DNA from: a virus | DNA length: 42,582 nucleotides | Virus record (IMG/VR): IMGVR_UViG_3300049157_000018 | Coordinates: 1-42,582 of that record | Reading direction: 5' to 3' (one strand) | Part shown: piece after piece, positions 1,162-41,004 of the stretch | Numbering within the stretch: position 1 is the first letter of the stretch | How the letters are laid out: the number at the start of each line of letters is the position of its first letter | Notes under the pieces: generated by a model | What the model saw: only the letters and a program-made list of their open reading frames with translations | Told to the model about the DNA's origin: nothing | Database searches by the model: none | Program-made: the position numbers and the translations under genes

Positions 1162-1434
1162 ATGCCTAAAGGTGGTGTGCGTCCCGGCTCAGGTCGGCCG
1201 AAGGGCGTACCGAACAAAGCGACAGCTGACATCAAGGCGCTTGCCCAGAAACACGGCAAGGCGGCGATCGACAAACTCGTCAAGATGATGGACAGCGACG
1301 ACGAGCGCACCATTATCGCCGCCAGCAAGGAACTGCTGGACCGCGGCTATGGCAAGGCGCCCCAAGCGATTACCGGCGAGGGCGGCGAGGGCCCGGTAAC
1401 GATCGTGGTCGAGACCGGCATCAGGCGTGACTGA
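1162..1434 (+). CDS. terS: Terminase small subunit
   Basis: A 90-residue protein with a basic N-terminus containing the GSGRPKG..NK.TAD motif (residues about 9-24), typical of small phage DNA-packaging proteins. A helical segment with the conserved ASKELLDRGYGK block (residues about 53-64) follows. It would recognise phage DNA and recruit the large subunit to start packaging. It is short for a small terminase but matches compact alphaproteobacterial forms. Its stop overlaps the GTG start of the large subunit by eight bases, so the two are translationally coupled. Confidence 0.8.
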   Translation: MPKGGVRPGSGRPKGVPNKATADIKALAQKHGKAAIDKLVKMMDSDDERTIIAASKELLDRGYGKAPQAITGEGGEGPVTIVVETGIRRD

Positions 1435-2746
1435 AATCAGGGTGGCGACGGGCTATGTGCCCCGGCCGCTGCAGGCCAAGCTTCACAAGTCGCTCGACCG
1501 TTTCACCGTGCTGGTCTGCCACAGGCGGTTCGGCAAGACGGTGTTCTGCATCAACGAGCTGATCGATCGCGCGCTGTCCAACAAGGGAACCAATCCGCGC
1601 CTCGCCTACATCGCGCCGCTCTACAAGCAGGCCAAGACGGTTGCCTGGGATTACCTGAAGCACTACACGGCGGCTATCCCGGGCCGGCAGGTGAACGAGA
1701 GCGAGCTTAGGGTCGACCTGCCCAACGGCTCGCGCATCAGCCTGTACGGCGCCGACAACCCGGACAGCCTGCGCGGCATCTACCTCGACGGCGTGGTGCT
1801 GGACGAATACGCGCAGATGAGCCCGCGGCTGTGGGGCCAGGTCATCCGCCCTGCTCTGGCGGACCGCAAGGGCTGGGCGATATTCATCGGCACGCCGATG
1901 GGCCACAACGAGTTCTGGCGCATCTACGAATATGCCAAGTCGTCGGATGGCTGGTTCGCGGCCATGTTCAAGGCCAGCGAGACGGGTGTGCTCGAGCCGG
2001 ACGAGTTGATCGCCGCGGCCTCGGAAATGGACGAGGACGAGTACGACCAGGAATTCGAGTGCTCGTTTACCGCGGCGATCAAGGGCGCCTACTTCGGCAA
2101 GCTGATGGCGAAGGCCGACGCGGACGGCCGCATTGCCGGCGTGCCTTACGACCCGGTGCTTCCGGTCCACACGGCATGGGATCTGGGCATCGGCGACGAT
2201 AATGTGATCTGGTTCTTCCAGCAGTCCGGGCCGCGCATCCAGGTCATCGACTATTACGCCAACCACGGCTTCGGGGTCGATCACTACTGGCAGGAGCTGC
2301 AGCGCCGCGCCCGGGACGATGGTTACGTGTACGGCACGCACTACGCGCCGCATGATATCGAGGCGCGCGAGTGGGGCACGGGCCGGACCCGCGAGGAACA
2401 GTCAAAGCGGCTGGGGCTCAAATTCATCGTCGTGGCCCGCGTATCGAACAAGGAAGACGGCCACAACGCGGTACGGGCCATCCTGCCGCGCTGCTATTTC
2501 GATGAAAAGAAGTGCGAGGACGGCATCGAGGCGATGCGGCAATACAGGCGTGAGTGGGACGAGAAGAAACAGGCGTTCAAGGACCGTCCCCTGCATGACT
2601 GGACCAGCCACCCCGCCGATGCCTTCCAGACCATGGCGCTGGGCGTCAAGGACCAGTACGCGCCCCCCGAACCGCGCTGGGAGCGCAATCTGAACGAAGA
2701 ACTGCTGGACCACTTCAAGCGATCGGAGTCGAGCGAAAGGATTTGA
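1427..2746 (+). CDS. terL: Terminase large subunit (ATPase/nuclease)
   Basis: This 439-residue packaging motor cuts DNA and pumps it into the prohead. The Walker A-like motif CHRRFGKT is at residues 31-38, Walker B VVLDEYA at 123-129, and a coupling motif IGTPMG near 154-159. The RNase H-like nuclease half shows AWDLG (Asp 252) and a late HPADAF motif (Asp 398). The start is GTG 1427, overlapping the small subunit gene. Length is usual for compact podo- and siphovirus terminases. The gene directly downstream is not the portal, which lies 5.3 kb away. Confidence 0.95.
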   Translation: MTEIRVATGYVPRPLQAKLHKSLDRFTVLVCHRRFGKTVFCINELIDRALSNKGTNPRLAYIAPLYKQAKTVAWDYLKHYTAAIPGRQVNESELRVDLPNGSRISLYGADNPDSLRGIYLDGVVLDEYAQMSPRLWGQVIRPALADRKGWAIFIGTPMGHNEFWRIYEYAKSSDGWFAAMFKASETGVLEPDELIAAASEMDEDEYDQEFECSFTAAIKGAYFGKLMAKADADGRIAGVPYDPVLPVHTAWDLGIGDDNVIWFFQQSGPRIQVIDYYANHGFGVDHYWQELQRRARDDGYVYGTHYAPHDIEAREWGTGRTREEQSKRLGLKFIVVARVSNKEDGHNAVRAILPRCYFDEKKCEDGIEAMRQYRREWDEKKQAFKDRPLHDWTSHPADAFQTMALGVKDQYAPPEPRWERNLNEELLDHFKRSESSERI

Positions 2747-8021: not shown

Positions 8022-10127
8022 ATGCCAGACGCACCGTTTGTAAACCCGAAGGACGCCGGCAAGGGCGAGGAAGGCATCGTCAAGTATTGGCGGACCGAAC
8101 TGGATCTTGCCTCCAGGCACGAGGCCGACTGGCGCAAGCGGGGCAAGAAGGTCGTCGAGCGGTACCGCGATGAGAAGAAGCGCGCCGGCAAGCAGTTCAA
8201 CATCCTGTGGTCGAACACCGAGACGCTGAAGCCCGCCGTCTATTCCGCGACGCCGGAGCCGGATGTGAGGCGCCGCCATCTCGATGACGACCCGGTGGGC
8301 AAGGAAGCCGCCGAAACCCTGGAGCGGGCGCTCTCGTTTCTGGCCGATGGCGGGGATTTCGACGAGGACATGGAGGCGGCGCGCGACGACATGCTGCTGC
8401 CGGGCCGCGGCGTGCTCCGCGTCGTGCTGGAATCGGATATACAGACGAGGGCGCCGATTTCGATACAGCGCGAGGACGAAACCGAACCGGCCTTTTTCCT
8501 CGATGATGAGCCCGTAGTGCCGGACGGGGAAGACGCGAACGGCAACGCCTTCGTCGAGCAGATCGGCGAGCAGACCGTGCGGACGGAATACGTCGCATGG
8601 GACGATTTCCGGATATTCCCCGCGGGCGTGCGGCGCTGGCGCGATGCCTACGGTATCGGCTTCAAGCATGTGCTGACGCGGACCGAACTCGTCGACCAAT
8701 TCGGCGCCATCGGAAAATCCGTGCCTCTGAACTTCACGATGCTGAAGGGCGAGGAAAAGGACAAGGAGCACAACGAGCCGCTGAAGCGCGCCGTCGTCTG
8801 GGAAATCTGGGACAAGCGCAGCCGGCAGCGCCTGTGGACCGCGGACGGCTTCGACAAACTGGTGGACCGGGAAGACGACCCGCTGGGACTACGGGGCTTC
8901 TTCCCAACCCCCGCCCCGCTATACGCGATATCGACCACGGATACGATGGTGCCGATCCCGGAATTCACCATCTACCAGGACCAGGCCGACGAGCTGGACG
9001 AGATCACGGCCCGTATCGCTCTGCTGATCAAGGCGATCAAGGTGCGCGGCCTGTACGCGGCGGCGATCAAGGAATTCCGCGACCTGCTGCAGGGCGAGGA
9101 CAACGAATTGCTACCGGTCGAGGACTGGGCGTCGATGCGGGACAGGGGCGGGCTCGAAGGTGCGGTCACATGGATGCCGATCGAGCAGATCGCCAAGGTG
9201 CTGGTGTCGCTGTACCAGCAGCGCGAACTTCTCAAGCAGGAGATTTTCGAGATCACCGGGCTTTCCGACCTGATAAGGGGCTCGACCAATGCCAGCGAGA
9301 CGGCGACGGCGCAGCGCCTGAAGGGGAATTTTGGGCAGTTCCGCATGACGCCGCGGCAGAAACCCGTAGCCCGCTATGCGCGCGACCTGTTCCGAATCAT
9401 GGCCGAGATCGTCGCGGAGCATTTTACGCAGGACAACCTCGTCCGCATGACGGGAATGCAGCTGCCCTCGCAAGATGACAAAGTGCAGGCGAAGGCGGTG
9501 GTGACTCGTGCCGAACAGGCAGGGCAACCTGTGCCTGCCGAGATTCAGCAGATGCTCGAAAAATCGACATGGGAAGACGTAATGCAGCTGCTGCGCGACG
9601 ACAAGACGCGGGGCTTCCGCATCGACATCGAGACCGATTCGACGGTGCAGCCCGACGCGGACCAGGAACGCCAGGCCGCTACCGAATTCACGGCAGCAGT
9701 TACCCAGTTCCTGACGACGGCAATCGAGGTCGTCGGCGCGGAACCCGCTCTGGCGAAGGTCATGGGCGAAATGCTCAAGATGTCGGTGCGGCGCTTCAAG
9801 GTCGGGCGGACGGTCGAGGACGCGATAGACGAGGCCCTGCTGGAAATCGAGCAGAAAGCGCAGCAGCCCCGGCCGGACCCGGAAGCCGAGGCGGCACAGG
9901 CCGAAACGGCGCGCAAGGATCAGGAATCTCAGGCCGGCATAGAACGCAAGCAGCAGGAGAGCGTCGCCAGCCTCGCAATGAAGCGTGAGTCCATGCAGGC
10001 CGAGACGGCCCTGAAACAGCAGGAGGCCCAGATTGCCGCCATCCTGAAGTTCCTGGAGGCGAAGTTCGGGGCGGAGATTGAAAGCTTCAAGGCGCGGCAG
10101 CAAACACAAGGAGCGCAGAACGGATGA
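8022..10127 (+). CDS. Portal protein
   Basis: 701 residues, the size of P22-type podovirus portals. The protein forms the dodecameric ring through which DNA passes. The N-terminal part contains KYWRTELDLA and a helical body. The middle includes TGLSDLIRGSTNASETATA (about 425-445), a conserved block in podoviral portals. The C-terminal 110 residues form an extended Gln- and Glu-rich helix, compatible with a portal barrel. The start ATG 8022 follows a GAGGTAGG Shine-Dalgarno-like sequence. A four-base overlap couples it to the next gene. Confidence 0.9.
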   Translation: MPDAPFVNPKDAGKGEEGIVKYWRTELDLASRHEADWRKRGKKVVERYRDEKKRAGKQFNILWSNTETLKPAVYSATPEPDVRRRHLDDDPVGKEAAETLERALSFLADGGDFDEDMEAARDDMLLPGRGVLRVVLESDIQTRAPISIQREDETEPAFFLDDEPVVPDGEDANGNAFVEQIGEQTVRTEYVAWDDFRIFPAGVRRWRDAYGIGFKHVLTRTELVDQFGAIGKSVPLNFTMLKGEEKDKEHNEPLKRAVVWEIWDKRSRQRLWTADGFDKLVDREDDPLGLRGFFPTPAPLYAISTTDTMVPIPEFTIYQDQADELDEITARIALLIKAIKVRGLYAAAIKEFRDLLQGEDNELLPVEDWASMRDRGGLEGAVTWMPIEQIAKVLVSLYQQRELLKQEIFEITGLSDLIRGSTNASETATAQRLKGNFGQFRMTPRQKPVARYARDLFRIMAEIVAEHFTQDNLVRMTGMQLPSQDDKVQAKAVVTRAEQAGQPVPAEIQQMLEKSTWEDVMQLLRDDKTRGFRIDIETDSTVQPDADQERQAATEFTAAVTQFLTTAIEVVGAEPALAKVMGEMLKMSVRRFKVGRTVEDAIDEALLEIEQKAQQPRPDPEAEAAQAETARKDQESQAGIERKQQESVASLAMKRESMQAETALKQQEAQIAAILKFLEAKFGAEIESFKARQQTQGAQNG

Positions 10128-10631: not shown

Positions 10632-11711
10632 ATGAGCGTTGATGGCGGGCAGGAAGCCCAAGCCGAAACGACCGAAACCGAAACCCCGGAAGCGACGCTT
10701 CTGGACACACTCGATGCCGCGTGGGACGAGACGGCAGAGGCGGAAGCCGAAGCCGAATCTCCGGAAACCCCGGCCGCGGAACAGGAGGCGGCAGAGGCCG
10801 CCCCGGAGCAGGAAGCGGAGGAGGCGGAAGCCGCAGCGGCAGAGGATGCCGACGACGAGCCCGCCGGACCGGTCGAAGCCCCGGAACACTGGCCGCAGGC
10901 CGACAAGGATCTGTTCGACCAGTTGCCCGACGATTCGAAGTCGTGGTTCCTGGACAAGACAAAATCCCTGGAGGCCGGCTACGACTCCAAGTTCAAGGAG
11001 GTCGCGGACCAGCGCAAGCGGTTCTCGGCATATGAACAGATCGACCAGCTTATCGAGCCCAACCGGGAACAACTCCGGCTCGCGGGCGTGACCGAGCAGG
11101 CGTACATCGGGCAACTGATGGCCGCCGACCGGTACCTGCGGGAGAAACCTGGCGAGGCAATCGCGTGGCTGGCGCAGACTTACGGCATCGACCTGAAGCA
11201 GCAGACGGCCGGGCAGGAGTCCGAAGCCGACATGCTCGACCCGGTTGCAGCCACCAGGATCGACACCTTAACCAGCAAGATTTCGTCCCTCGAAACTCAG
11301 CTACAGCAGAGGCAGCAGGCCGAACAGCAGGCCGGTGCCAACGCCTTGCAGGGCCGGATCGACGAATTCCGCGACGCGGCCGACGAGAAGGGCAACCCCG
11401 CGCATCCTCATTTCGAGGAAGTTCGCGCACATATGGGGGCGCTCATCAACTCGGGTGCGGCCACCGACCTCGACAGCGCATACGAGCAGGCCATCTGGGC
11501 CTCGCCCAAGCTGCGCGACGATTTGATCGCCCGTCAGACGACGGAAGCGGCGAAGACGGCGCAGGCAGCGCGCCAGGAACAGGTCGGCAAGGCCAAGAAA
11601 GCGTCACGGAACGTCAACGGCACCGGCGCGGCGGGCACGGTCGAACGCGAGGAAGCGGACACGCATCTGGAGGAGCTGGAGCGTCAATGGGACGAGCTTG
11701 CGCCAACCTGA
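10632..11711 (+). CDS. Scaffolding protein
   Basis: 359 residues with a GGAGG Shine-Dalgarno site nine bases before the ATG. The first about 80 residues are extremely acidic and Ala/Glu-rich, the centre (LFDQLPDDSKSWFLDKTKSLE, split here by position about 93-113) is helical, and the C-terminus is a mixed helix. This composition is typical of scaffold proteins that shape the procapsid and then leave. It lies between portal and capsid, the canonical place. Confidence 0.8.
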   Translation: MSVDGGQEAQAETTETETPEATLLDTLDAAWDETAEAEAEAESPETPAAEQEAAEAAPEQEAEEAEAAAAEDADDEPAGPVEAPEHWPQADKDLFDQLPDDSKSWFLDKTKSLEAGYDSKFKEVADQRKRFSAYEQIDQLIEPNREQLRLAGVTEQAYIGQLMAADRYLREKPGEAIAWLAQTYGIDLKQQTAGQESEADMLDPVAATRIDTLTSKISSLETQLQQRQQAEQQAGANALQGRIDEFRDAADEKGNPAHPHFEEVRAHMGALINSGAATDLDSAYEQAIWASPKLRDDLIARQTTEAAKTAQAARQEQVGKAKKASRNVNGTGAAGTVEREEADTHLEELERQWDELAPT

Positions 11712-11727
11712 ATAAAGGAACGTGACA

Positions 11728-12696
11728 ATGGCTTCGCCAAACCTCACGGAACTTGTCACCACGACCCTGCGCAACCGGCGCCGGAAACTGGCCGACAACG
11801 TTCTCAACCACAACTCGTTGCTCCGCAAGCTCAACCAGAGCGGCAACGTCCAGAACGCCGCGGGCGGTCGAACGCTCGTGGAGGAGCTGGAATACGCGGA
11901 GAACTCGACGTTCAAATACTACGACGGTTACGAAGTGCTCGACATTTCGCCGTCGGACGTATTCTCGGCCGCCGAGTACAACTGGAAACAGGCCGCGGTC
12001 GTGGTCAGCATCTCCGGCAAGGAGCGCCGGCAGAACAGCGGCCGCGAGCAGATGATCCGCCTTCTCGACCGGCGTATCCGCAACTCCGAAAAGACGATGA
12101 TGAACAACCTGTCCATCGGTGTCTATTCGGACGGAACGGGCACGACGGGCAAGCAGATCGGCGGGCTTCAGCTGCTGGTCCCGGACGACCCGACGACCGG
12201 AACGGTGGGCGGCATCAACCGCGCTACCTTCACGTTCTGGCAGTCGGTCAAGTACGGCGGCGTGGCCGATGGCGGCGGCGCCGTCAGTGCGACGAACATC
12301 CAGAATTATATGAACAGCGTGTGGATCCAGCTCGTGCGCGGGGCGGACCGTCCCAACATGATCGTGGCGGATTCCACGTACTTCAACTTCTTCTGGCAGT
12401 CGTTGCAGGCCATCCAGCGCATCGGCCAGGCCAATACCGGCGATTCGGGTTTCGAAAACCTGATGTACCACGGGCCCGGTGGACGGGCCGAGGTCATGTA
12501 CGACGACCAGTGCCCGGCCGCACACATGTACTTCCTCAACAGCGACTACTTCTTCTGGCGCCCGCACAGCGACGCCAACATGGAGCCGCTGTCGAGGCGC
12601 GAGCCGGTCAACCAGGACGCCGTGGTCGTTCCCCTCATCTTCATGGGCAACCTGACAATGAGCAACAGCTCGTTGCAGGGTGTCCTGATCGCCTGA
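11728..12696 (+). CDS. Major capsid protein
   Basis: 322 residues. The start ATG 11728 is chosen because AAAGGAA at 11714-11720 is correctly spaced; a GTG at 11722 is possible. N-terminal ASPNLTELVTTTLRNR, a middle with SGKERRQNSG and a Gly/Thr-rich beta section followed by NMIVADS fit the podoviral HK97-fold capsid family seen in alphaproteobacterial phages. It follows the scaffold gene directly and is followed by a decoration-type gene and terminator, as expected for the most abundant virion protein. Confidence 0.85.
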   Translation: MASPNLTELVTTTLRNRRRKLADNVLNHNSLLRKLNQSGNVQNAAGGRTLVEELEYAENSTFKYYDGYEVLDISPSDVFSAAEYNWKQAAVVVSISGKERRQNSGREQMIRLLDRRIRNSEKTMMNNLSIGVYSDGTGTTGKQIGGLQLLVPDDPTTGTVGGINRATFTFWQSVKYGGVADGGGAVSATNIQNYMNSVWIQLVRGADRPNMIVADSTYFNFFWQSLQAIQRIGQANTGDSGFENLMYHGPGGRAEVMYDDQCPAAHMYFLNSDYFFWRPHSDANMEPLSRREPVNQDAVVVPLIFMGNLTMSNSSLQGVLIA

Positions 12697-27391: not shown

Positions 27392-27675
27392 ATCATCCTC
27401 CAGACCACATGCCCCGCCCCCAGCAGCACCGCAGGCACGACCCAGCCGGCCAGATCCCGCAGCGAGGGGTTGAGGTCATGCACGAATTCCCGGTACAGGC
27501 CCACCAGGATTGCCGGCAGGGCGCACAGGAGCGGGTACTGGAGCAATCTGTCGTGTATCAACGACACCTGTCCCGTAAGCTGGATAAGCCCCTCGGTAAT
27601 CGCCACGCTCAGCGACACATGGGCGATATCGTGCGCAATGTCGGTGCGGGTCCAGGCTTTGAAGCGGGCGATCAT
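27388..27675 (-). CDS. Membrane protein
   Basis: 95 residues with about two to three hydrophobic helices (about 20-35, 45-60 and 75-93) in a His- and Asp-containing frame (RTDIAHDIAHVSLSV). No known motif. It may be a host-takeover or exclusion protein of the early operon. Overlaps neighbours by four bases. Confidence 0.6.
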   Translation of the reverse strand: MIARFKAWTRTDIAHDIAHVSLSVAITEGLIQLTGQVSLIHDRLLQYPLLCALPAILVGLYREFVHDLNPSLRDLAGWVVPAVLLGAGHVVWRMM

Positions 27676-28148
27676 GGCGTGTCCTTGGCGGCGCGGATGG
27701 CGGCGGCTCGCGCCTCGGCATAGTCGCGGCCCAGCATGGTCCCGACACCGTTCTTGAAATCCTCGGGGAACAGGCCGTTATGGCAGTGCGGGCAGGCGGG
27801 CACCATCTTGCGCTTGCGCCACACCTTGTCGAGTTCCATGGTGGCAAGCGCACGAGCCTGAAATGTTTCAGCTTCCTCAAGCCGCTCGCGTCGGCGCCGC
27901 AACTCGTCCGCCGCCGCCGCGTATTGTGCGACCAGCCCGGCGAAGGCGTCAAACGACTCGACCTCGTGCTCGCAATCCTTGCACCAGACGCGCCGCTCCC
28001 GCGTATCATACAACAGGCGGCGGTGCTTGCACGCCGAATAGGGACGGCGAGTCATGCCGCGCGAGACGCGGTAATCGCCGATGTCGACGACGCCTGGACC
28101 CATTATGAAATCCATCTCCTGGATCGGCGGGTCGCGATCCTCAGCCAT
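27672..28148 (-). CDS. Zinc-binding hypothetical protein
   Basis: 158 residues from ATG at 28148 with GGAGGAG upstream. It shows SACKHRRL...WCKDCEHE (residues about 39-61), a coiled coil (about 75-105) and a second CPHCHNG knuckle (about 118-124). Two zinc knuckles around a helix are consistent with a nucleic-acid or protein-binding factor. It is the first gene left of the dif-like region. Confidence 0.6.
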   Translation of the reverse strand: MAEDRDPPIQEMDFIMGPGVVDIGDYRVSRGMTRRPYSACKHRRLLYDTRERRVWCKDCEHEVESFDAFAGLVAQYAAAADELRRRRERLEEAETFQARALATMELDKVWRKRKMVPACPHCHNGLFPEDFKNGVGTMLGRDYAEARAAAIRAAKDTP

Positions 28149-28238
28149 CAAAATCTCCTCCTTTATCCCCGTGCTTCACAGACCGGTACATCTAGGTGGT
28201 ATCCAGGTACGTTTGTAACTTTATTGCTCATTAAGGAA

Positions 28239-28265
28239 TCCACTGTCTTCACTGGCTTCACTGGA
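28239..28265 (+). repeat. Three tandem 9-bp repeats beside dif-like site
   Basis: TCCACTGTC, TTCACTGGC and TTCACTGGA lie head to tail. Related TTTACTGGC and TTCAGTGGA copies lie at 28335-28353 on the other side of the dif-like site. They look like binding sites for an accessory protein. Confidence 0.6.
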
Positions 28266-28279
28266 CCGCCCCTAAGTCA

Positions 28280-28307
28280 TTGTCGCATAATGTATATATT
28301 GACAAAC
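28280..28307 (+). other. dif-like XerC/XerD recombination site
   Basis: Compared with E. coli dif as I know it: the XerC arm matches 7 of 11, the six-base centre TGTATA matches fully, and the XerD arm matches 6 of 11. Bases 28284-28296 are identical over 13 contiguous positions. A poor XerD arm with good XerC arm and centre is compatible with a phage att site that mimics dif. Use by the host recombinases is inference. Confidence 0.55.
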
Positions 28308-28354
28308 TTTGCTGGCGGCACTGCATATAGTGGGTTTACTGGCATTCAGTGGAA

Positions 28355-28573
28355 TCAGTCCACAGGGTTATTCACAGGACTCCCCTTCTCCTGCTTGGCA
28401 AGCCTGATGCGCTCCATCATCAAGTCATCGAGGCGGTATAGCTTCTGCAATGTACCGTCCGGGTCGTCGTAGTCTTTCATCTCCAATATGTCGGCTATAG
28501 CCCGGAAGTTCAGTCCCTTGCAGGCAAGGATAATTCTGAAATCCGTCGAAAACTTTTCCATCTCTTTGCTCAT
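28355..28573 (-). CDS. Hypothetical protein, paralogue of 32143 gene
   Basis: 72 residues. The core FSTDFRIILACKGLNFRAIAD, then ILEMKDYDDPDGTLQKLYRL is similar in order and spacing to the protein encoded at 32143-32364 (NFSAIAEILENYGYDDPERTIAKL). It looks like a small helical adaptor. No enzyme motif. Starts at ATG 28573, overlapping its upstream neighbour. Confidence 0.55.
   Translation of the reverse strand: MSKEMEKFSTDFRIILACKGLNFRAIADILEMKDYDDPDGTLQKLYRLDDLMMERIRLAKQEKGSPVNNPVD
28368..28376 (+). promoter_or_regulatory. DnaA-box match
   Basis: TTATTCACA fits the consensus TTATNCACA at every position. It overlaps the last codons of the gene at 28355. A single nine-base match can occur by chance, but its place next to the AT-rich dif-like region is notable. 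Confidence 0.35.
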
Positions 28574-29128: not shown

Positions 29129-29641
29129 TCATGCCGCGCGGTCCGCGTTCTGCTGAAGTGCTTGCTTCGACGTGCCGATCATCGCCGACACGATATCGAG
29201 AACGCGCTCCTTGCTCTCGCCGAACGCCTTCTTGCCCATGGCGCGGGTCGATTGCGATTTGGCAGTAAACACCGTCACCAGCGCATCCGACACCGTGACG
29301 ACAGCGTATTCGTCCATGGGGCGAACGAAGGCCGCGACGCGCAGGGCCTCCGCCTTGCTTGAAGCGGCGATGCTGCGCTCGTCCCGATATCCGGCTTTGA
29401 TAAGTGCAAACTTGCGAAGCGCATCCGGCGTGGCAAACCGCTCGGCCAGATCCTCTGGCAGATTCTTCCACGCCTCGTTGATCGACGCAAAGTAGAACCT
29501 GTGCGATCGCATCGAGCGGTCCTCGTAGGGAGCCATCCGATAACTCTCGCCCACGACATAGTGCTTGTCGGCAATCTTCGGGTGCCGCGGCACGAGGCTT
29601 TCGCCGTCCCAGTCGAACAGCATAGGGGCAATGTCGGCCAT
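29129..29641 (-). CDS. Hypothetical early protein near recombination genes
   Basis: 170 residues from ATG at 29641, overlapping the YqaJ stop by one base. The first 60 residues contain MLFDWDGESLVPRHP and a later SHRFYFASINEAWKNLPED block, followed by a helical half with AKSQSTRAMGKKAFGES. It resembles conserved phage proteins carried beside recombination genes (NinB/DUF1367-like in outline), but I am not sure of the family. Confidence 0.6.
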   Translation of the reverse strand: MADIAPMLFDWDGESLVPRHPKIADKHYVVGESYRMAPYEDRSMRSHRFYFASINEAWKNLPEDLAERFATPDALRKFALIKAGYRDERSIAASSKAEALRVAAFVRPMDEYAVVTVSDALVTVFTAKSQSTRAMGKKAFGESKERVLDIVSAMIGTSKQALQQNADRAA

Positions 29642-30300
29642 CAGCCTGCCGCCAGAATGGTGTTGGGCTCATCGGCTGGCGCGGCCTGCCGGCGCAGCGC
29701 GGCCAGAACCTCGTTGCGTTCCTTGCGGAGCTTTGGGATTTGGGCCAGCAATGCCGCCTGCAAATCCCTGTCCGGTTCAAGTCTGATCGTCAGCATCGGC
29801 AGTTCGGGATGGTGAAAGACGATATCGCACCATGCCCGGCCGCAGATCATCATCTGGCCCTGCGCCTGCTGGATGTAATCTGGCGGGCAGCGCCCGTGCT
29901 TCTGGAAGTAGAGAATCGCCTTGGTGTGATTCTCGGCCTTCAGGCATTTAACCTCGATCAAGCCATCGTCGCCGATGAACCTGTCCGGCGAGCAGCCCAT
30001 CGCGCCGGTATCGTCCGTAACGAAGCCCACGGGCACGGTATCGACATCGTGCGCGAACTCGTAGAGGTCGATGGCGTGCGACTCCATCTCGCGTCCGCGC
30101 TCGGTCCAGTCATTGCCCTCCCACGCATCGACGGGGCGACCGGCGAATAATTCGTTGGCCAGCGTGATCGCATACCCCGCAGCGGATTTGGACGGCTCGC
30201 CCTTGCTGGTGACGATCTTGGAAAACTCGGAAGCGGTCGGTAGCCCGGCACGGAGCACGTACCATTCGTCGCTGCGCTGTTCTACGTCATGGATTTTCAT
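29641..30300 (-). CDS. YqaJ-family viral exonuclease
   Basis: 219 residues from ATG at 30300. N-terminal QRSDEWYVLRAGLPTASEF is characteristic of the YqaJ/lambda-exonuclease family. Catalytic residues are visible as Asp 106 (SPDRF) and Glu 116-x-Lys 118 (IEVKC). It degrades one strand of DNA ends so that the ERF protein can anneal the other. It overlaps the ERF gene by 14 bases, forming a two-component recombination unit. Confidence 0.88.
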   Translation of the reverse strand: MKIHDVEQRSDEWYVLRAGLPTASEFSKIVTSKGEPSKSAAGYAITLANELFAGRPVDAWEGNDWTERGREMESHAIDLYEFAHDVDTVPVGFVTDDTGAMGCSPDRFIGDDGLIEVKCLKAENHTKAILYFQKHGRCPPDYIQQAQGQMMICGRAWCDIVFHHPELPMLTIRLEPDRDLQAALLAQIPKLRKERNEVLAALRRQAAPADEPNTILAAG

Positions 30301-31039
30301 GTTTCTCGCTTTCTGCTGTCTGCTTGGCCTGCAATGCCACCTTGGCGGCGCCGAACGCGCTGGCAGGCAATTCGTCAAGACTCGCGACGCCGAGCAGTTT
30401 CAGGAACCGTGCCGTATCGGCCCCGGTCTTTTTCATCATGTCGACGAGCGCTTCCTTCTGCTGCGCCGAAATCGGCTCCCCCGGCAAGCCGCCGTCGTTA
30501 TCCTCGCCGGCCGCAAGTCCAGTGGCCGCGAGCAACGTGTACCTCTGAAGGTAAGTCGTCGTGGAGCCGATCTGCTGAATGAGGTTCTTGCTGCCGGAAT
30601 CGTCGGGCATGCCCCGCATCGTCACCCGCTCGGCGTGGCCCAGCGTGTGCGTCAGAACGCACGTCACCGCGACGGCGGCGTTTTCAAGCTGGTTGATCTC
30701 CCATGTGTGGGAGAGCCCGTGCGCCGCAAGCGCCTGCCCGATGACCTCGCAGACTTGATCCAGCGTGGCGTGGTCGTATTCGGTGTTCCCGAACTTGACG
30801 TGCCGGTTCTTGACGATCCTGGGCGGGTCCGCCTTGAACGCGGCGAGCGCCTGGACGAACGCCTTGCGGGCTTCACGGGCCTCCCAGCGTTCATGGAGGT
30901 TCATGAGCTTGTCCAACTGCTCGATGTCCGTGCCCTTTTCGACGGCGATCTGGAGCATCTGCATTGGGGTAACGGCGGGCGCCGCTGCGGATTCGATCTC
31001 CACCAGTTCGCCCTTGGCTGCGGTGCTGTGTTCTGTCAT
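30287..31039 (-). CDS. erf: ERF single-strand annealing protein
   Basis: 250 residues. The ERF superfamily core covers about residues 45-180: KAFVQALAAFKADPPRIVKN, YDHATLDQVCEVI and GSTTTYLQRYTLLAATGL. It binds single-stranded DNA and anneals complementary strands for phage recombination and circularisation. It works with the YqaJ exonuclease encoded just downstream. Confidence 0.9.
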   Translation of the reverse strand: MTEHSTAAKGELVEIESAAAPAVTPMQMLQIAVEKGTDIEQLDKLMNLHERWEAREARKAFVQALAAFKADPPRIVKNRHVKFGNTEYDHATLDQVCEVIGQALAAHGLSHTWEINQLENAAVAVTCVLTHTLGHAERVTMRGMPDDSGSKNLIQQIGSTTTYLQRYTLLAATGLAAGEDNDGGLPGEPISAQQKEALVDMMKKTGADTARFLKLLGVASLDELPASAFGAAKVALQAKQTAESEKHENP

Positions 31040-32146: not shown

Positions 32147-32364
32147 CTCCCGACCTCCCCCTGCAGCCCGTTCTGATATCGCCGCACATCCTCATTCAGA
32201 TTACGCAGTTTCGCTATCGTGCGTTCGGGGTCATCATAACCGTAGTTTTCCAGTATCTCAGCAATGGCGCTAAAATTCAGACGGCAGCAGGCGGACAGAA
32301 CATCGCCCTTCGCGGCAAGAAAATCACGCATTTCGTCGGCAGCCTTTCCCCATTCGTGTGTCAT
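32143..32364 (-). CDS. Hypothetical protein, paralogue of 28355 gene
   Basis: 73 residues from ATG at 32364. Contains NFSAIAEILENYGYDDPERTIAKLRN, matching the core of the 28355 protein. Helical and soluble. Such duplicates within one operon suggest divergence after gene duplication. Confidence 0.55.
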   Translation of the reverse strand: MTHEWGKAADEMRDFLAAKGDVLSACCRLNFSAIAEILENYGYDDPERTIAKLRNLNEDVRRYQNGLQGEVGR

Positions 32365-34134: not shown

Positions 34135-34479
34135 TTATGCTGTCTTGCCGCCACGGTCCTTGCGGTGCTGTTTCTCGACCTCGGCACGCAGCGCCCAATA
34201 GTCCTGTACCAGGGGTTCGCGCGACGGCGGGTGCGGTTCGTCAATGACGCAGCACAGATAGTCCAAGGAAATGTTCAAGCTCTGCGCCAGCTTGACGACG
34301 TAGGGGAGATCGATCGACTCGCGTTCATGCCAGCCCTTGTAGTCCTTATATCCCGCATCCATGCGCGCGGCGAAGATCGTTATCGTCTCGCCGATATCCT
34401 GACGCACGTTCTCGACCCGCGCCATGATCGCGGCCTTGATGTCGCGCTTTTCGTCAATGCGGTTCGCTGGATGAAGCAT
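34135..34479 (-). CDS. CI-like repressor, short form
   Basis: 114 residues from ATG at 34479; an ATG at 34536 would add 19 residues but begins inside the rightward promoter. A helix-turn-helix XRE domain covers about residues 20-80 (VRQDIGETITIFAARMDAGY, ESIDLPYVVKLAQSLNISLDYL). There is no LexA-type S24 peptidase domain. It would bind the nearby 17-bp operators and hold the lytic operons off. Because the protein cannot self-cleave, induction must use another route. A terminator follows it. Confidence 0.75.
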   Translation of the reverse strand: MLHPANRIDEKRDIKAAIMARVENVRQDIGETITIFAARMDAGYKDYKGWHERESIDLPYVVKLAQSLNISLDYLCCVIDEPHPPSREPLVQDYWALRAEVEKQHRKDRGGKTA

Positions 34480-34496
34480 CACCACATTTTGTGATA
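34480..34496. promoter_or_regulatory. Operator O2 near repressor start
   Basis: Reads TATCACAAAATGTGGTG on the minus strand, the same pattern as the operators at 34033 and 34539. It lies at the repressor start codon, so binding would control repressor synthesis. Confidence 0.6.
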
Positions 34497-34514
34497 ATGC
34501 TGCCTTCCCTGCTA

Positions 34515-34544
34515 TATCTATGTTTTTGGTTTGCATCGTATCAA
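34515..34544 (-). promoter_or_regulatory. Candidate repressor promoter (PRM-like)
   Basis: TTGATA (34544-34539), an 18-bp spacer and TAGATA (34520-34515) on the minus strand. It predicts a start near 34508, downstream of the ATG at 34536, which favours the shorter repressor. Confidence 0.5.
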
Positions 34545-34559
34545 AACATGTGATATAAC
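34531..34559 (+). promoter_or_regulatory. Rightward early promoter (PR-like)
   Basis: TTGCAT (34531-34536), a 17-bp spacer and TATAAC (34554-34559) form a good sigma-70 promoter. The spacer contains the operator at 34539-34555. The predicted start of transcription is only one or two bases before the Cro-like ATG at 34568. Confidence 0.7.
34539..34555. promoter_or_regulatory. Operator O1 in the early promoter
   Basis: TATCAAAACATGTGATA, a dyad with TATCA and TGATA ends and a seven-base centre. It covers the spacer of PR and the -35 of the repressor promoter. Confidence 0.7.
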
Positions 34560-34567
34560 CAGTACCT

Positions 34568-34795
34568 ATGTCAACCCCTAATAATTGCACAGCCCCCAGC
34601 GCGGCAGACCTGATCAAACGCTTTGGCGGACCCTCGAAACTGGGGGAAGAGATTGGTGTGGGCCAGTCTGCGGTATCCATGTGGAATGATCGCGGTATCC
34701 CCGGGAAGTGGCATTTGCCGCTTCTTCGGAAGGCGCGCGAGATGGGGATTTCTCTTACCGAAGAGGAACTGTTGGCCACGATTAACTGCAAATGA
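34568..34795 (+). CDS. Cro-like regulator (YdaS-type helix-turn-helix)
   Basis: 75 residues. The helix-turn-helix covers about residues 12-45 (AADLIKRFGGPSKLGEEIGV, then SAVSMWNDRGIPG), matching YdaS/Cro-type proteins. Divergent from the repressor and first gene of the rightward early operon. No Shine-Dalgarno site exists within the predicted transcript, so translation may be leaderless. Confidence 0.8.
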   Translation: MSTPNNCTAPSAADLIKRFGGPSKLGEEIGVGQSAVSMWNDRGIPGKWHLPLLRKAREMGISLTEEELLATINCK

Positions 34796-34852
34796 CGGTG
34801 CATTGAAACCTCCCTTTGTATCACCTGACAATACCAACGGTTGCACCGTCAT
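34792..34852. repeat. 11-bp inverted repeat after cro
   Basis: ATGACGGTGCA (34792-34802) and its exact complement TGCACCGTCAT (34842-34852) flank a 39-base loop. The first arm includes the stop codon of the Cro-like gene. There is no T-rich tail within ten bases. It may be a regulatory hairpin or protein-binding site. Confidence 0.6.
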
Positions 34853-36845: not shown

Positions 36846-37011
36846 CCCGGCGCCGATCGACGGCTTCGGCCATTACCCCGGCGGCAGCAACAACCCTGCC
36901 GCCGGGCTTCCCAACAGCCCCAGCCTCCCTGACCTGGGGCCGGAGCGGCGGCAGTCCACCCGTGACCTCCCCACGCTGCCGCCGTTCCACTTTCGAGGTG
37001 ACGTGACGTGA
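36844..37011 (+). other. Open frame without start, 3' part of possible frameshifted gene
   Basis: 55 codons, Pro/Gly-rich, including GFGHYPGGSNNPAAGLPNS, ending four bases into the next gene start. No normal start codon exists in frame downstream of the TGA pair at 36811-36816. See the 36771 entry. Confidence 0.4.
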
Positions 37012-37991
37012 ATAAACCACTCGCCAACATCATAATCCCAGAACGCGGTTCTGTCGTTTCGGCAGAGGCATTGCTGGCCATCGAAGAACAAGTGACAACC
37101 GCGATTGCTGCCATAGAAGATTTTGGCACGCTTGAAGAGTGGCGCGCACAGGCAAGGGCGCTCGAACAGTATCTTCGGGATAAAGATCTGCAGGGACCGA
37201 TGCTTGGTTCACAGCGGCGCATTGAAGGACGAATTGGACAGTTGTTGGGAGAAGCTCCTGGTCGGGGAAAATCGGAGATGAGTCAGCGTGCTGACTTATT
37301 TCATAGGCAGTTTCGCGAGGAGTTCCGAATTTTGGCACGGGCACTTAATGGCGAGTGCCTACTTGAGAATAACGAATGGCGGAAATCACGACGTGCGCTC
37401 GTGTCGCTGGTTCGCAATCGTCTTGGATTGGTACCGGAATTGGAGCCGCTACCCGATGGCATTTTCCGATGCATCGTTGCAGATCCACCGTGGCAACTCG
37501 ACACTGGTCCTGATGCATGGGGTACGAAAGGCGAGTCCGGCCACGATAATCTTGCCTACGAGCAAATGTCCGTTGAGCGCATCAAGCAAATGCCGGTTGT
37601 CGATCATGCCGCCGATGACGCTCATCTCTATCTCTGGACAACGAATAAATACGTCGAACAGTCCTACGATATAGCCCGGTCGTGGGGCTTTAAACCATCC
37701 GTTCTACTCGTGTGGGCCAAAGAACCGCATGGAGTCGGGTTGGGTGACGCTTTCCGGCTGACCACGGAATTCATCCTTTACGCGCGGCGCGGCCATCTTA
37801 AGGAAGCCCAGATTTGCGATAGAACATGGTTCAACTGGCCGCGCAGTATTCATTCACGGAAACCGGAGGGATTCTACGAACTCGTCGAGACGATGACGCC
37901 CGCACCATATGCGGAGAAAGATCGTCTTGAATTGTTCGCGCGCGGGCCTCGGAAAGGGTGGACCGTATGGGGCGATGAAGCACATGGCTGA
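37008..37991 (+). CDS. MT-A70-type adenine methyltransferase
   Basis: 327 residues from GTG 37008. The N-terminal part (1-145) is helical and similar to targeting domains of phage MT-A70 enzymes. The catalytic half starts at CIVADPPWQL (DPPW at 159-162, the substrate-binding motif), followed by LYLWTTN and an RLELFARGPRKGW end, typical of the family. It methylates adenine N6 in DNA or RNA. The gene is less GC-rich than nearby ones, pointing to transfer. It overlaps a predicted nuclease gene. Confidence 0.9.
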   Translation: MNKPLANIIIPERGSVVSAEALLAIEEQVTTAIAAIEDFGTLEEWRAQARALEQYLRDKDLQGPMLGSQRRIEGRIGQLLGEAPGRGKSEMSQRADLFHRQFREEFRILARALNGECLLENNEWRKSRRALVSLVRNRLGLVPELEPLPDGIFRCIVADPPWQLDTGPDAWGTKGESGHDNLAYEQMSVERIKQMPVVDHAADDAHLYLWTTNKYVEQSYDIARSWGFKPSVLLVWAKEPHGVGLGDAFRLTTEFILYARRGHLKEAQICDRTWFNWPRSIHSRKPEGFYELVETMTPAPYAEKDRLELFARGPRKGWTVWGDEAHG

Positions 37992-38975: not shown

Positions 38976-39376
38976 ACCGCACCGCCGAACTCTCCGCGAT
39001 CGACCAGCACATAGAAACCCATGGCCTTTATCTCTGCGCGCCGGGCGAGAGCCTATACGGCGACGAGGCGATTCCGTTCCGGGAGACGCAGCGCAACATC
39101 GCGCGGAACTTTGCCGCGCAGCGCCGCAAGCCCAGACCTGAATGCGCGATGGACGGCTGCCACAATCGCGTGAAGGCAGCGAAGCACAAATACTGTTCGC
39201 CAGAATGTTTTGCGGCCGGCCGCACGCATCCACTGATCGCCGTCAACTGCGACGAATGCGGCGCCGAGCTGAAGCGCAAGGAGTGGCTGATCAAGCAGAA
39301 CAGGCACAACTTTTGCAATCGTGCATGCCACGTCGCGCATCTGTGCAAGGCCGGGAGCGGGGAGGGGGCGGGATGA
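38972..39376 (+). CDS. Zinc-finger protein with three cysteine clusters
   Basis: 134 residues from GTG 38972. The C-terminal half contains ECAMDGCHNRVKAAKHKYCSPECF and NCDECGAELKR..HNFCNRACHVAHL, typical of phage zinc-ribbon and HNH-associated proteins that bind DNA. N-terminal SAIDQHIETHGLYLCAPGE resembles a helix-turn-helix. Unknown role, adjacent to Dam-type methyltransferase. Confidence 0.65.
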   Translation: MNRTAELSAIDQHIETHGLYLCAPGESLYGDEAIPFRETQRNIARNFAAQRRKPRPECAMDGCHNRVKAAKHKYCSPECFAAGRTHPLIAVNCDECGAELKRKEWLIKQNRHNFCNRACHVAHLCKAGSGEGAG

Positions 39377-40221
39377 GCGTGCCGACTCGCCCGATACTGC
39401 GCTGGCACGGCGGCAAGTGGCTGCTGGCCCCGTGGGTCATTGAACATTTGCCGCCACACCGAATCTATGTCGAGCCGTTTGGCGGGGCAGCATCGGTCTT
39501 GATGCGAAAGCCCAGGTCCTACGCGGAAGTCTACAATGATCTGGACGATGATGTCGTTAATCTTTTCCGTATTCTACGCAAGCAGCCAGAGGCTTTGACT
39601 GAGGCGTTGCGGCTTACACCGTTTGCCCGCACTGAGCATGTACTGGCCAGCCAACGGACAGACGATGCGCTTGAACAGGCGCGGCGGCTTGTGGTGCGCG
39701 CCTTCATGGGGTTCGGATCGAATGGTCACAACATCAAACGCAAGACATGTTTCCGGGCCAATTCCAACCGCAGCGGGACAACACCGGCCAGAGATTGGCG
39801 AAATTATCCCGATCAGCTCGAGGCAATTGTTGATCGACTGCGTGGGGTCACGATTGAAAACCGAGATGCGCTCGAGGTTATGAAAGCGCACGACGGGCGC
39901 GGGACGCTGCATTATGTCGACCCGCCATATTTGCCCGAAACGCGCTCGCTTCGAAATCCTTATGATCTGACCTATGCGGGTATGTACGCCCATGAGATGA
40001 CCGCAGATGATCATGCCCTCCTGCTTGCGGGGCTGCAGGACCTAACAGGCATGGTCGTTTTATCGGGCTACCACAGCGCGCTGTACGACGATGCGCTCGC
40101 AGGGTGGCGACGTACTCAGCGCAAGGCACTGGCAGATGGTGCCCGGGCACGCACCGAGGTCCTGTGGATTAACCCAGCTGCCGATGCCGGACACGGGCTG
40201 TTTGCGGAGGCAGCGGAATGA
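39373..40221 (+). CDS. Dam-type (D12 class) N6-adenine methyltransferase
   Basis: 282 residues from ATG 39373. RWHGGKWLLAPW (S-adenosylmethionine site, residues 10-21), VEPFGGAASV (33-42) and YVDPPYL (DPPY at 183-186) are the order of motifs in D12 methyltransferases. It methylates adenine in short DNA sites, protecting phage DNA from restriction. It is somewhat less GC-rich than the flanks, suggesting recent acquisition. Confidence 0.92.
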   Translation: MSVPTRPILRWHGGKWLLAPWVIEHLPPHRIYVEPFGGAASVLMRKPRSYAEVYNDLDDDVVNLFRILRKQPEALTEALRLTPFARTEHVLASQRTDDALEQARRLVVRAFMGFGSNGHNIKRKTCFRANSNRSGTTPARDWRNYPDQLEAIVDRLRGVTIENRDALEVMKAHDGRGTLHYVDPPYLPETRSLRNPYDLTYAGMYAHEMTADDHALLLAGLQDLTGMVVLSGYHSALYDDALAGWRRTQRKALADGARARTEVLWINPAADAGHGLFAEAAE

Positions 40222-40289
40222 CGTTCATGGACACATGGCTGTTCCACCATGCGCGCTGGAGCGTGATGATGCGGAGGGGCGATGGCTGA
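40218..40289 (+). CDS. Tiny hypothetical protein
   Basis: 23 residues overlapping the methyltransferase stop by four bases and the DUF1376 start by eight (MTFMDTWLFHHARW). Tight coupling is its only support. Confidence 0.3.
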   Translation: MTFMDTWLFHHARWSVMMRRGDG

Positions 40290-41004
40290 CTACCCCGCCA
40301 TGCAGCTATGGACGGACGCCTATCTGGCTGACACCACGGATCTGTCGGCAGAAGAACATGGCGCCTATCTGCTGCTTCTCATGGCGGCATGGCGCACCCC
40401 TGATTGCGCCCTTCCTGATGATGACCAGAGGCTTGCCCGCATGGCCCGCGTCGGCACGAAAAAATGGCACAAATTGCGCCCCGTCATGGAACGGTTTTTT
40501 ACCGTCGACGCCCGCGGGTGGACGCAGAAGCGTCTCCTGAAGGAGCGCGAGAGGAGCGACATGTACCGTTCCCAGAAATCGCAAGCAGGAAAAGCTAGCG
40601 CACGGAAAAGAAACGAAACTGCCTCAACGGACGTTGCAACGGAAGGGGCAACGGGGAAGCAACCACCCTTAACCACACCCAAACCCATAAGAGAGTCCGC
40701 ACCTAACGGTGCGGGGCGCGCAACGCGATTGCCGGACGACTGGACGTTGCCGGAAGAATGGCAGGCATGGGCACTCGAGGAGGGGTGGCCCGCCGAGCGG
40801 GTGGTGTTCGAAGCGGAGCGCTTCCGCGATTACTGGCACGCCGCTGGTGGCCAGAATGCCCGGAAGCGGGACTGGTTCGCCACATGGCGGAATTGGATGC
40901 GAAGGGAACCGAAGAACAATGACCGAACCGATAGAAAAACAGAACGCAACAGCCCTCACGACAAGCTCCTGGCCGGATTCGCTGCGGCAGCTCGTGACCC
41001 GTGA
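40282..41004 (+). CDS. DUF1376 replication protein (YdaU-like)
   Basis: 240 residues. Residues 1-85 match DUF1376: PAMQLWTDAYLADTTDLSAE, EHGAYLLLLMAAWR and MARVGTKKWHKLRP. A flexible linker follows, then a C-terminal domain with WQAWALEEGWP and RFRDYWHA. Such proteins are replication initiators of phages such as Rac and P22-like ones. The 3' 86 bases overlap the next gene. The phage origin may lie within it or nearby. Confidence 0.85.
   Translation: MADYPAMQLWTDAYLADTTDLSAEEHGAYLLLLMAAWRTPDCALPDDDQRLARMARVGTKKWHKLRPVMERFFTVDARGWTQKRLLKERERSDMYRSQKSQAGKASARKRNETASTDVATEGATGKQPPLTTPKPIRESAPNGAGRATRLPDDWTLPEEWQAWALEEGWPAERVVFEAERFRDYWHAAGGQNARKRDWFATWRNWMRREPKNNDRTDRKTERNSPHDKLLAGFAAAARDP

Follow-up and report, generated by a model that had tools for sequence, protein, structure and literature searches.

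A dif-like site in a podovirus-like phage genome without detectable integrase: candidate attP for host XerC/XerD

How could a temperate-looking tailed phage without a detectable integrase enter a bacterial chromosome, and is a 28-bp dif-like sequence in its early region the place where host recombinases would act? The question is raised by IMGVR_UViG_3300049157_000018, a circular virus contig of 42,582 bases (the window, i.e. the whole stretch of DNA that was analysed) with 61% GC. Judged from a 127-base end repeat, the circular 42.6-kb contig looks like a complete genome. Its structural genes (terminase, portal, head, tail) form a rightward module, and YqaJ exonuclease and ERF belong to a leftward module (Table 1). 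Relatives of the portal protein at about 30-34% are found in Mx8, Bradyrhizobium ppBjS10J-1 and Ruegeria 45A6, and the phage is podovirus-like. A divergent CI/Cro-like gene pair at 34.1-34.8 kb, with weak yet consistent matches, makes the phage temperate-looking. The true start of the CI-like gene is probably located downstream of the listed one. Two adenine-type DNA methyltransferases (37008-37991 and 39142-40221; phrog_359, PF02086) are encoded in the rightward early region.

An earlier note on this DNA, made from the letters alone, had reported that no integrase gene is present, and the searches bear this out. PF00589 and PF00239 did not match any phage protein at E<=10, a result to be read with the reservation that a very divergent integrase could escape Pfam, as the ppBjS10J-1 enzyme itself lies under the Pfam cut-off. 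Using this divergent integrase in tblastn, no homologue was detected in the phage, and near the site there is no integrase-sized unexplained gene. Like IMEX, the phage lacks a recognisable integrase of its own; the lambda-type arrangement with an integrase next to attP was not found. In ppBjS10J-1, the integrase and an att repeat are located between the lysis and the ERF/YqaJ genes, which corresponds on the map to the surroundings of position 28280 here. The ppBjS10J-1 enzyme, a 425-aa 'hypothetical protein' (L003, 69-1346), represents a divergent tyrosine integrase; its PF00589 match (1.7e-5) stays below the cut-off. The att site of ppBjS10J-1, TAAGTCAGTCATC, is common to both record ends and lies near the 3' end of pepT.

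The 28-bp site and its surroundings

On the plus strand, positions 28280-28307 read TTGTCGCATAA TGTATA TATTGACAAAC. In this orientation the earlier note had compared them with E. coli dif and counted 7/11, 6/6 and 6/11 matches, and the same counts are obtained with the dif printed in PMC2731167. Its run of 13 contiguous identical bases (28284-28296) has to be extended to 14 (28284-28297). Its assignment of the arms did not hold: The plus-strand, E. coli-like reading was dropped, as the minus strand with XerC and XerD arms swapped fits alphaproteobacterial dif better. In Magnetospirillum magneticum, the published dif reads CGTCGCCATAA TATACA TTATGCGACAA. The phage site agrees with it at 22/28 positions, 18 of them contiguous, with 6/6 in the centre and 11/11 in the XerD arm. 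Centre and XerD arm together comprise 17 bases (TATACATTATGCGACAA) identical to dif of Magnetospirillum and relatives; the degeneracy is confined to the XerC arm. As expected for dif, a central hexamer is located between 11-bp arms and conservation is best in the XerD arm. By its sequence, 28280-28307 is very probably a dif-type Xer site of some function.

Table 1. Features of the phage genome discussed in the text (positions in the window)
Feature	Position	Strand	Basis or best match
Terminase large subunit	1427..2746	+	phrog_2
Portal protein	8022..10127	+	phrog_12082 3e-194
Major head protein	11722..12696	+	phrog_9953 1.5e-104
Gene adjoining the site spacer, phrog_8538, no assigned function	27672..28151	-	phrog match
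Intergenic spacer with site and flanking repeats, 203 bp	28152..28354	.	ORF calls
Three head-to-tail CACTG(G) nonamers TCCACTGTC, TTCACTGGC, TTCACTGGA	28239..28265	+	repeat search
dif-like XerC/XerD site, candidate attP, GTTTGTCAATA TATACA TTATGCGACAA	28280..28307	-	sequence, dif comparison, weight matrix
XerD arm TTATGCGACAA	28280..28290	-	11/11 as in Rhodospirillales-type dif
Centre TATACA	28291..28296	-	6/6 as in Rhodospirillales-type dif
Degenerate XerC arm GTTTGTCAATA	28297..28307	-	compared with host consensus ATTTnnCATAA
TTTACTGGC, then inverted copy CAGTGGAATC	28335..28356	+	repeat search
72-aa gene on the other side of the spacer	28355..28573	-	family matches none; resembles 32191-32364
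YqaJ-type recombination exonuclease	29641..30378	-	PF09588 1.7e-20
ERF-type single-strand annealing protein	30287..31039	-	PF04404 7.6e-14
CI-like repressor candidate	34135..34824	-	phrog_8 3.4e-4
Cro-like regulator	34568..34795	+	phrog_8008 3.5e-10; P22_Cro 6.6e-6 (under Pfam cut-off)
Primosomal, replication-type gene	40282-41004		phrog_3992

A weight matrix was built from 76 Rhodospirillales-type dif sites, and 100 shuffled genomes served as background. Scoring with an alphaproteobacterial dif profile had been proposed in the earlier note, and the outcome is clear: The phage site reaches 34.2, the shuffled maximum is 2.2. With the same matrix, the next-best place in the 42,582-nt genome scores -10.7, so that no second such site is present there. 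With a general proteobacterial matrix, 14.8 is obtained for the minus strand and 18.3 for the plus-strand reading. Because of this weaker minus-strand score, the alphaproteobacterial comparison is decisive. A scan of GTDB genomes for TATACATTATGCGACAA yielded at least 109 matches; 76 of the 80 loci read, the ones used for the matrix, show the canonical CATAA in the XerC arm, and they come mostly from Rhodospirillales and other alphaproteobacteria related to them. Within the order that contains M. fulvum, the 17-mer was found in 87 of 317 genomes, nearly always as a single copy, and the reversed 17-mer used as control in none of the 317. The exact 19-base site pattern has no second copy in the viral contigs searched, and BLAST of the 201-bp site region against phages and plasmids returned short chance matches only.

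A 203-bp spacer of the leftward early operon, with a leftward gene on either side, contains the site. The phrog_8538 gene on one side has a homologue in Pseudomonas phage PAJU2, located one gene from the PAJU2 integrase. The small early proteins encoded on the other side (28355-28573) and at 32191-32364 are paralogues (43% over 58 aa), and an informative family match was obtained for neither. CACTGG-type repeats flank the site. The tandem TTCACTGGC/TTCACTGGA occupies 28248-28265 and is preceded by a third, degenerate nonamer (28239-28247); TTTACTGGC is located at 28335-28343, and CAGTGG follows in inverted orientation at 28347. Among the outer copies, which are inverted, CAGTGGAATC at 28347 pairs with GAATCCACTG at 28236-28245. 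The three-plus-two nonamers described before are therefore roughly right in number, but one copy is degenerate and one inverted. Five such sites in 130 nt are the densest cluster of the genome, and 4 of 300 shuffles reach five; the repeats form a modest local cluster around the dif-like core. It is possible that they are sites for an accessory protein or a repressor. An analogy is provided by TLCphi, which, according to work cited in PMC9765430, encodes the accessory factor XafT.

dif sites in host genomes and in other phages

In Rhodospirillales-type hosts, dif serves as an insertion site. Four of the 317 genomes contain two 17-mer copies on one contig, and each of the four combines a full dif with a copy in which TATACATTATGCGACAA is kept and the XerC arm changed. 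Two of the dif-flanked elements, 4.1 kb in G254 and 4.3 kb in G230, encode a G2P-like replication protein. An SLT lysozyme is encoded in the 11.2-kb dif element of G166, as is a capsid-like protein (phrog_28223). In AMB-1, a second, rearranged dif copy is located 11 kb away in inverted orientation. The element-side XerC arms in two Magnetospirillum-type genomes are TGTCGCCAATC and CGTTGTCAATC, that of the phage is GTTTGTCAATA; the former end with ...GCCAATC and ...GTCAATC, the latter with ...GTCAATA. This means that CATAA has become CAATC in the element-side att of these two genomes, and the phage has CAATA at this place. The dif-element loci read in Rhodospirillales are L253 (4285-15504), L254 (4222 and 15338), L255 (1740-6034) and L256 (5161-9232). 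BLASTP of the capsid-like protein from the 11-kb element against the Jorvik capsid revealed no relation.

From the site alone, we infer a Rhodospirillales-type alphaproteobacterium as host. As in IMEX, there is a dif mimic with a host-compatible centre, TATACA being the centre in dif of the presumed host clade; as evidence, this match is partly circular, because the host was deduced from the same site. A prophage beside dif, for which the earlier note had suggested to look, was not encountered: Among the 317 genomes of the order, phrog_2 terminases (present in 91 genomes) were never found less than 50 kb from an exact dif, and no dif-inserted prophage came to light in the ten contigs with a portal gene that 385 genomes of the class provided. 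Integration at host dif with attL and attR was thus sought and not seen in this limited genome sample, so that the phage is not counted among the proven IMEX members. In G403, a portal gene is located about 17 kb from dif. It belongs to a terminase/portal remnant among host genes without a second dif and was rejected.

Scans with portal, ERF and gene 34 revealed distant relatives only, none of them close. Among 168 portal/ERF-relative loci, this phage included, a clear dif is present only in this phage and in G335 (IMGVR_UViG_3300015171_000014). This podovirus-like relative carries GTTGCGTATAA TGGTCA TTATGTTAAAT (L271, 7686-7713), a beta/gamma-type dif in the spacer just before the terminase, and neither PF00589 nor PF00239 was found in it. 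Other candidates were discarded. The sequence AATTGTCATTC GATACA TTATGCGTACT in L388, 1.7 kb downstream of ERF, is no better than the control. Seven matches to the pattern GTCAATNTATACATTATG in viral contigs were rejected as att, as their outer XerD arm varies freely and at least one of them, in L338, reads through as coding sequence.

The 17-mer itself was found in 16 IMG/VR contigs, the reversed control in 2. Several of the 17-mer contigs are marine phages with CACTG motifs nearby. In at least two families the 17-mer is read in different frames, as KFCRIMYN (L233) and LSHNVYS (L235), which points to a constraint at the DNA level. Since a serine recombinase is encoded near the site in most of the contigs, these are not clean examples. 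In the marine contigs L233, L235/L249, L236, L237, L238, L241, L243, L245 and L248, TATACATTATGCGACAA lies where a small ORF begins, and close to it a serine recombinase is encoded. G352 is terminally redundant (99 bases). G364 (L251 and L252), a tailed phage contig of 33,134 bp, carries CCCTTCCATAA TATACA TTATGCGACAA at position 10638, a full dif of Rhodospirillales/SAR116-type, and both PF00589 and PF00239 are absent. Judged from these features, it is the best parallel to this phage.

A search of the phage collection for E. coli-type dif yielded CTXphi and microviruses as well as many tailed phages. The tailed phages among them (FV3, 4MG, Seurat, Wifcevirus) are presumably lytic, as they are usually regarded. 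Their sites are mostly intergenic (FV3, JLBYU08, 4MG, pEp_SNUABM_01, FENT2, Seurat, ECML-117, kaset, Bas99), and 19-22 of 22 arm bases are those of E. coli dif, compared to 13-15 of 22 in reversed controls, with a centre that is not that of the host. FV3 has GGTGCGCATAA TGGGTA TTATGTTAAAT with 22/22 arm bases; the centres are CGTGTA in 4MG, CGTCTA in Seurat and CGGGTA in Wifcevirus. The sites are located at 105476-105502 in JQ031132 (FV3), 118250-118276 in NC_022968 (4MG) and 49295-49324 in NC_027378 (Seurat), and further dif-bearing lytic phages are NC_048807, PQ882504, OK272482, NC_025441, PV245935 and PQ850618 (loci L463-L473). A published function of dif in lytic tailed phages was not found in the literature searched. 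Xer exchange requires matching centres. The lytic-phage sites could therefore recombine with each other and not with host dif, and have the appearance of Xer sites that are shielded from the host chromosome. In lytic phages, such sites could not serve a stable lysogeny, and a dif in a tailed phage need therefore not mean integration. Compared to the lytic phages, the phage studied here is reversed: It has a host-identical centre and a damaged XerC arm.

Possible functions of the site

The preferred reading, to which we assign a probability of roughly 0.6, is that a temperate tailed phage without an integrase uses the site as attP and is integrated at dif by host XerC/XerD. It is read as an att site because the att copies of the dif elements, the map position in ppBjS10J-1 and the excess of the 17-mer over its control agree. 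After infection, the circular genome would pair with host dif, and strand exchange by XerC/XerD across the identical 6-bp centre would lead to insertion at the replication terminus. One junction would retain the full host dif, so that dimer resolution could go on. The other would carry the degenerate XerC arm, and routine FtsK-driven excision would be inefficient. As a guess, a factor that sets the direction, from phage or host, might bind to the CACTGG flanks. It speaks against the reading that the degenerate XerC arm may be too poor for XerC binding. The idea of the earlier note that a podovirus uses dif without an integrase thus gains from a dif-type, att-like site in a temperate-looking phage with no detectable integrase; the dif-integrated prophage that would complete it was not found. 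Tentatively, and with some doubt, a rule might be proposed: Temperate integrase-less tailed phages would copy the host centre and the XerD arm and integrate at dif, as Caudoviricetes IMEX, and lytic ones would alter the centre of a site with both arms copied, which would confine host XerC/XerD to phage genomes and never join these to the chromosome.

Host XerC/XerD might instead resolve circular multimers of a plasmid-like prophage or of replication products, with no integration involved. Lytic tailed phages with near-complete E. coli dif arms and the relative G335, which combines a dif with the lack of PF00589 and PF00239 matches, are in line with such a role, which is nevertheless unlikely for this phage: The lytic-phage sites alter the centre and keep both arms, and here the opposite is the case. 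It is mainly because the host centre is kept and the XerC arm damaged that integration is ranked higher. In addition, partition and plasmid replication genes (Par, Rep), which P1/N15-type plasmid prophages have as their own, were not recognised among the proteins scanned, which included part of the small ORFs.

It is very unlikely that the stretch serves the leftward operon as promoter or regulator region, with an AT-rich core similar to dif by chance only and the CACTGG repeats as repressor operators. The 203-bp spacer between leftward genes would suit it, and so would TTGACA at 28299-28304, weak matches to the promoter consensus nearby, one of which (28262-28291, plus strand, 9/12) ends inside the site, and repeats with inverted outer copies that resemble operators. 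A promoter needs no 17-base identity to the dif of one clade, though one might overlap the site, and neither the matrix score far beyond the shuffles nor the reversed 17-mer in 0/317 genomes is expected from chance resemblance. Still somewhat less probable is an inert fragment of host dif, left by a past imprecise excision of this phage or of a filamentous element. The XerC arm is indeed degenerate and other elements occupy the dif regions of these hosts, yet outside the 28-mer nothing obviously matches the host dif flanks compared, and a perfect XerD arm together with a perfect centre suggests selection. That the region is part of a replication origin with the repeats as iterons is hardly credible: One exact DnaA-type box, TTATTCACA at 28368, lies near the repeats, but it is the only exact one, boxes with at most one mismatch number 9 where 11.4 are expected by chance, the replication-type gene (phrog_3992) is located at 40282-41004, and the identity to dif would stay unexplained.

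Comparison with known Xer-exploiting elements

Filamentous phages, microviruses, tailless membrane phages and islands are known to integrate by exploiting Xer; no tailed phage that does so was found in the open-access literature searched. If the preferred reading, attP for host XerC/XerD, is true, a tailed phage is not shown to be virulent by a missing integrase gene, and lifestyle and host clade can be predicted from sequence by the dif sites of phage contigs.

Filamentous dif phages like TLCphi share with this phage the lack of an own integrase and a dif-like attP, and they use host XerC/XerD for insertion at dif (PMC5357621), as proposed here. They are small and filamentous, whereas this is a 42.6-kb tailed dsDNA phage. 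Furthermore, in TLCphi it is the XerD arm that has been lost, with XerC arm and centre retained; this phage shows the reverse. In Gokushovirus EC6098 and other dif-borne microviruses, the dif motif is non-coding or located at a gene end, which resembles the phage dif. Integration of EC6098-type microviruses by host XerC/XerD has been shown experimentally (PMC7062461). EC6098 has 4.5 kb of ssDNA and varies in the centre and the XerD arm, in contrast to the XerC arm here. Jorvik-like Vinavirales phages have an alphaproteobacterial host, lack an integrase and have dif-like attP/attB (PMC10589892), which is the constellation proposed for this phage. They are tailless membrane phages of 8.8 kb, and in their attP it is the XerC side that is kept (TCCGATAA TCAGTA) and the XerD side that has diverged. 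The gonococcal genetic island (GGI) and Legionella LME-1 are larger dif elements in which a dif modified on one side stabilises the insert (PMC5357621, PMC9765430). The former is a T4SS island, and LME-1, phage-like by description, uses the single recombinase XerL. Vequintavirinae, Seuratvirus and Wifcevirus are tailed as is this phage and have mostly intergenic dif sites, but these combine host arms with a non-host centre and occur in phages regarded as lytic. Given this contrast with the foreign-centre sites of lytic phages, the identity of the centre should decide between integration and self-resolution.
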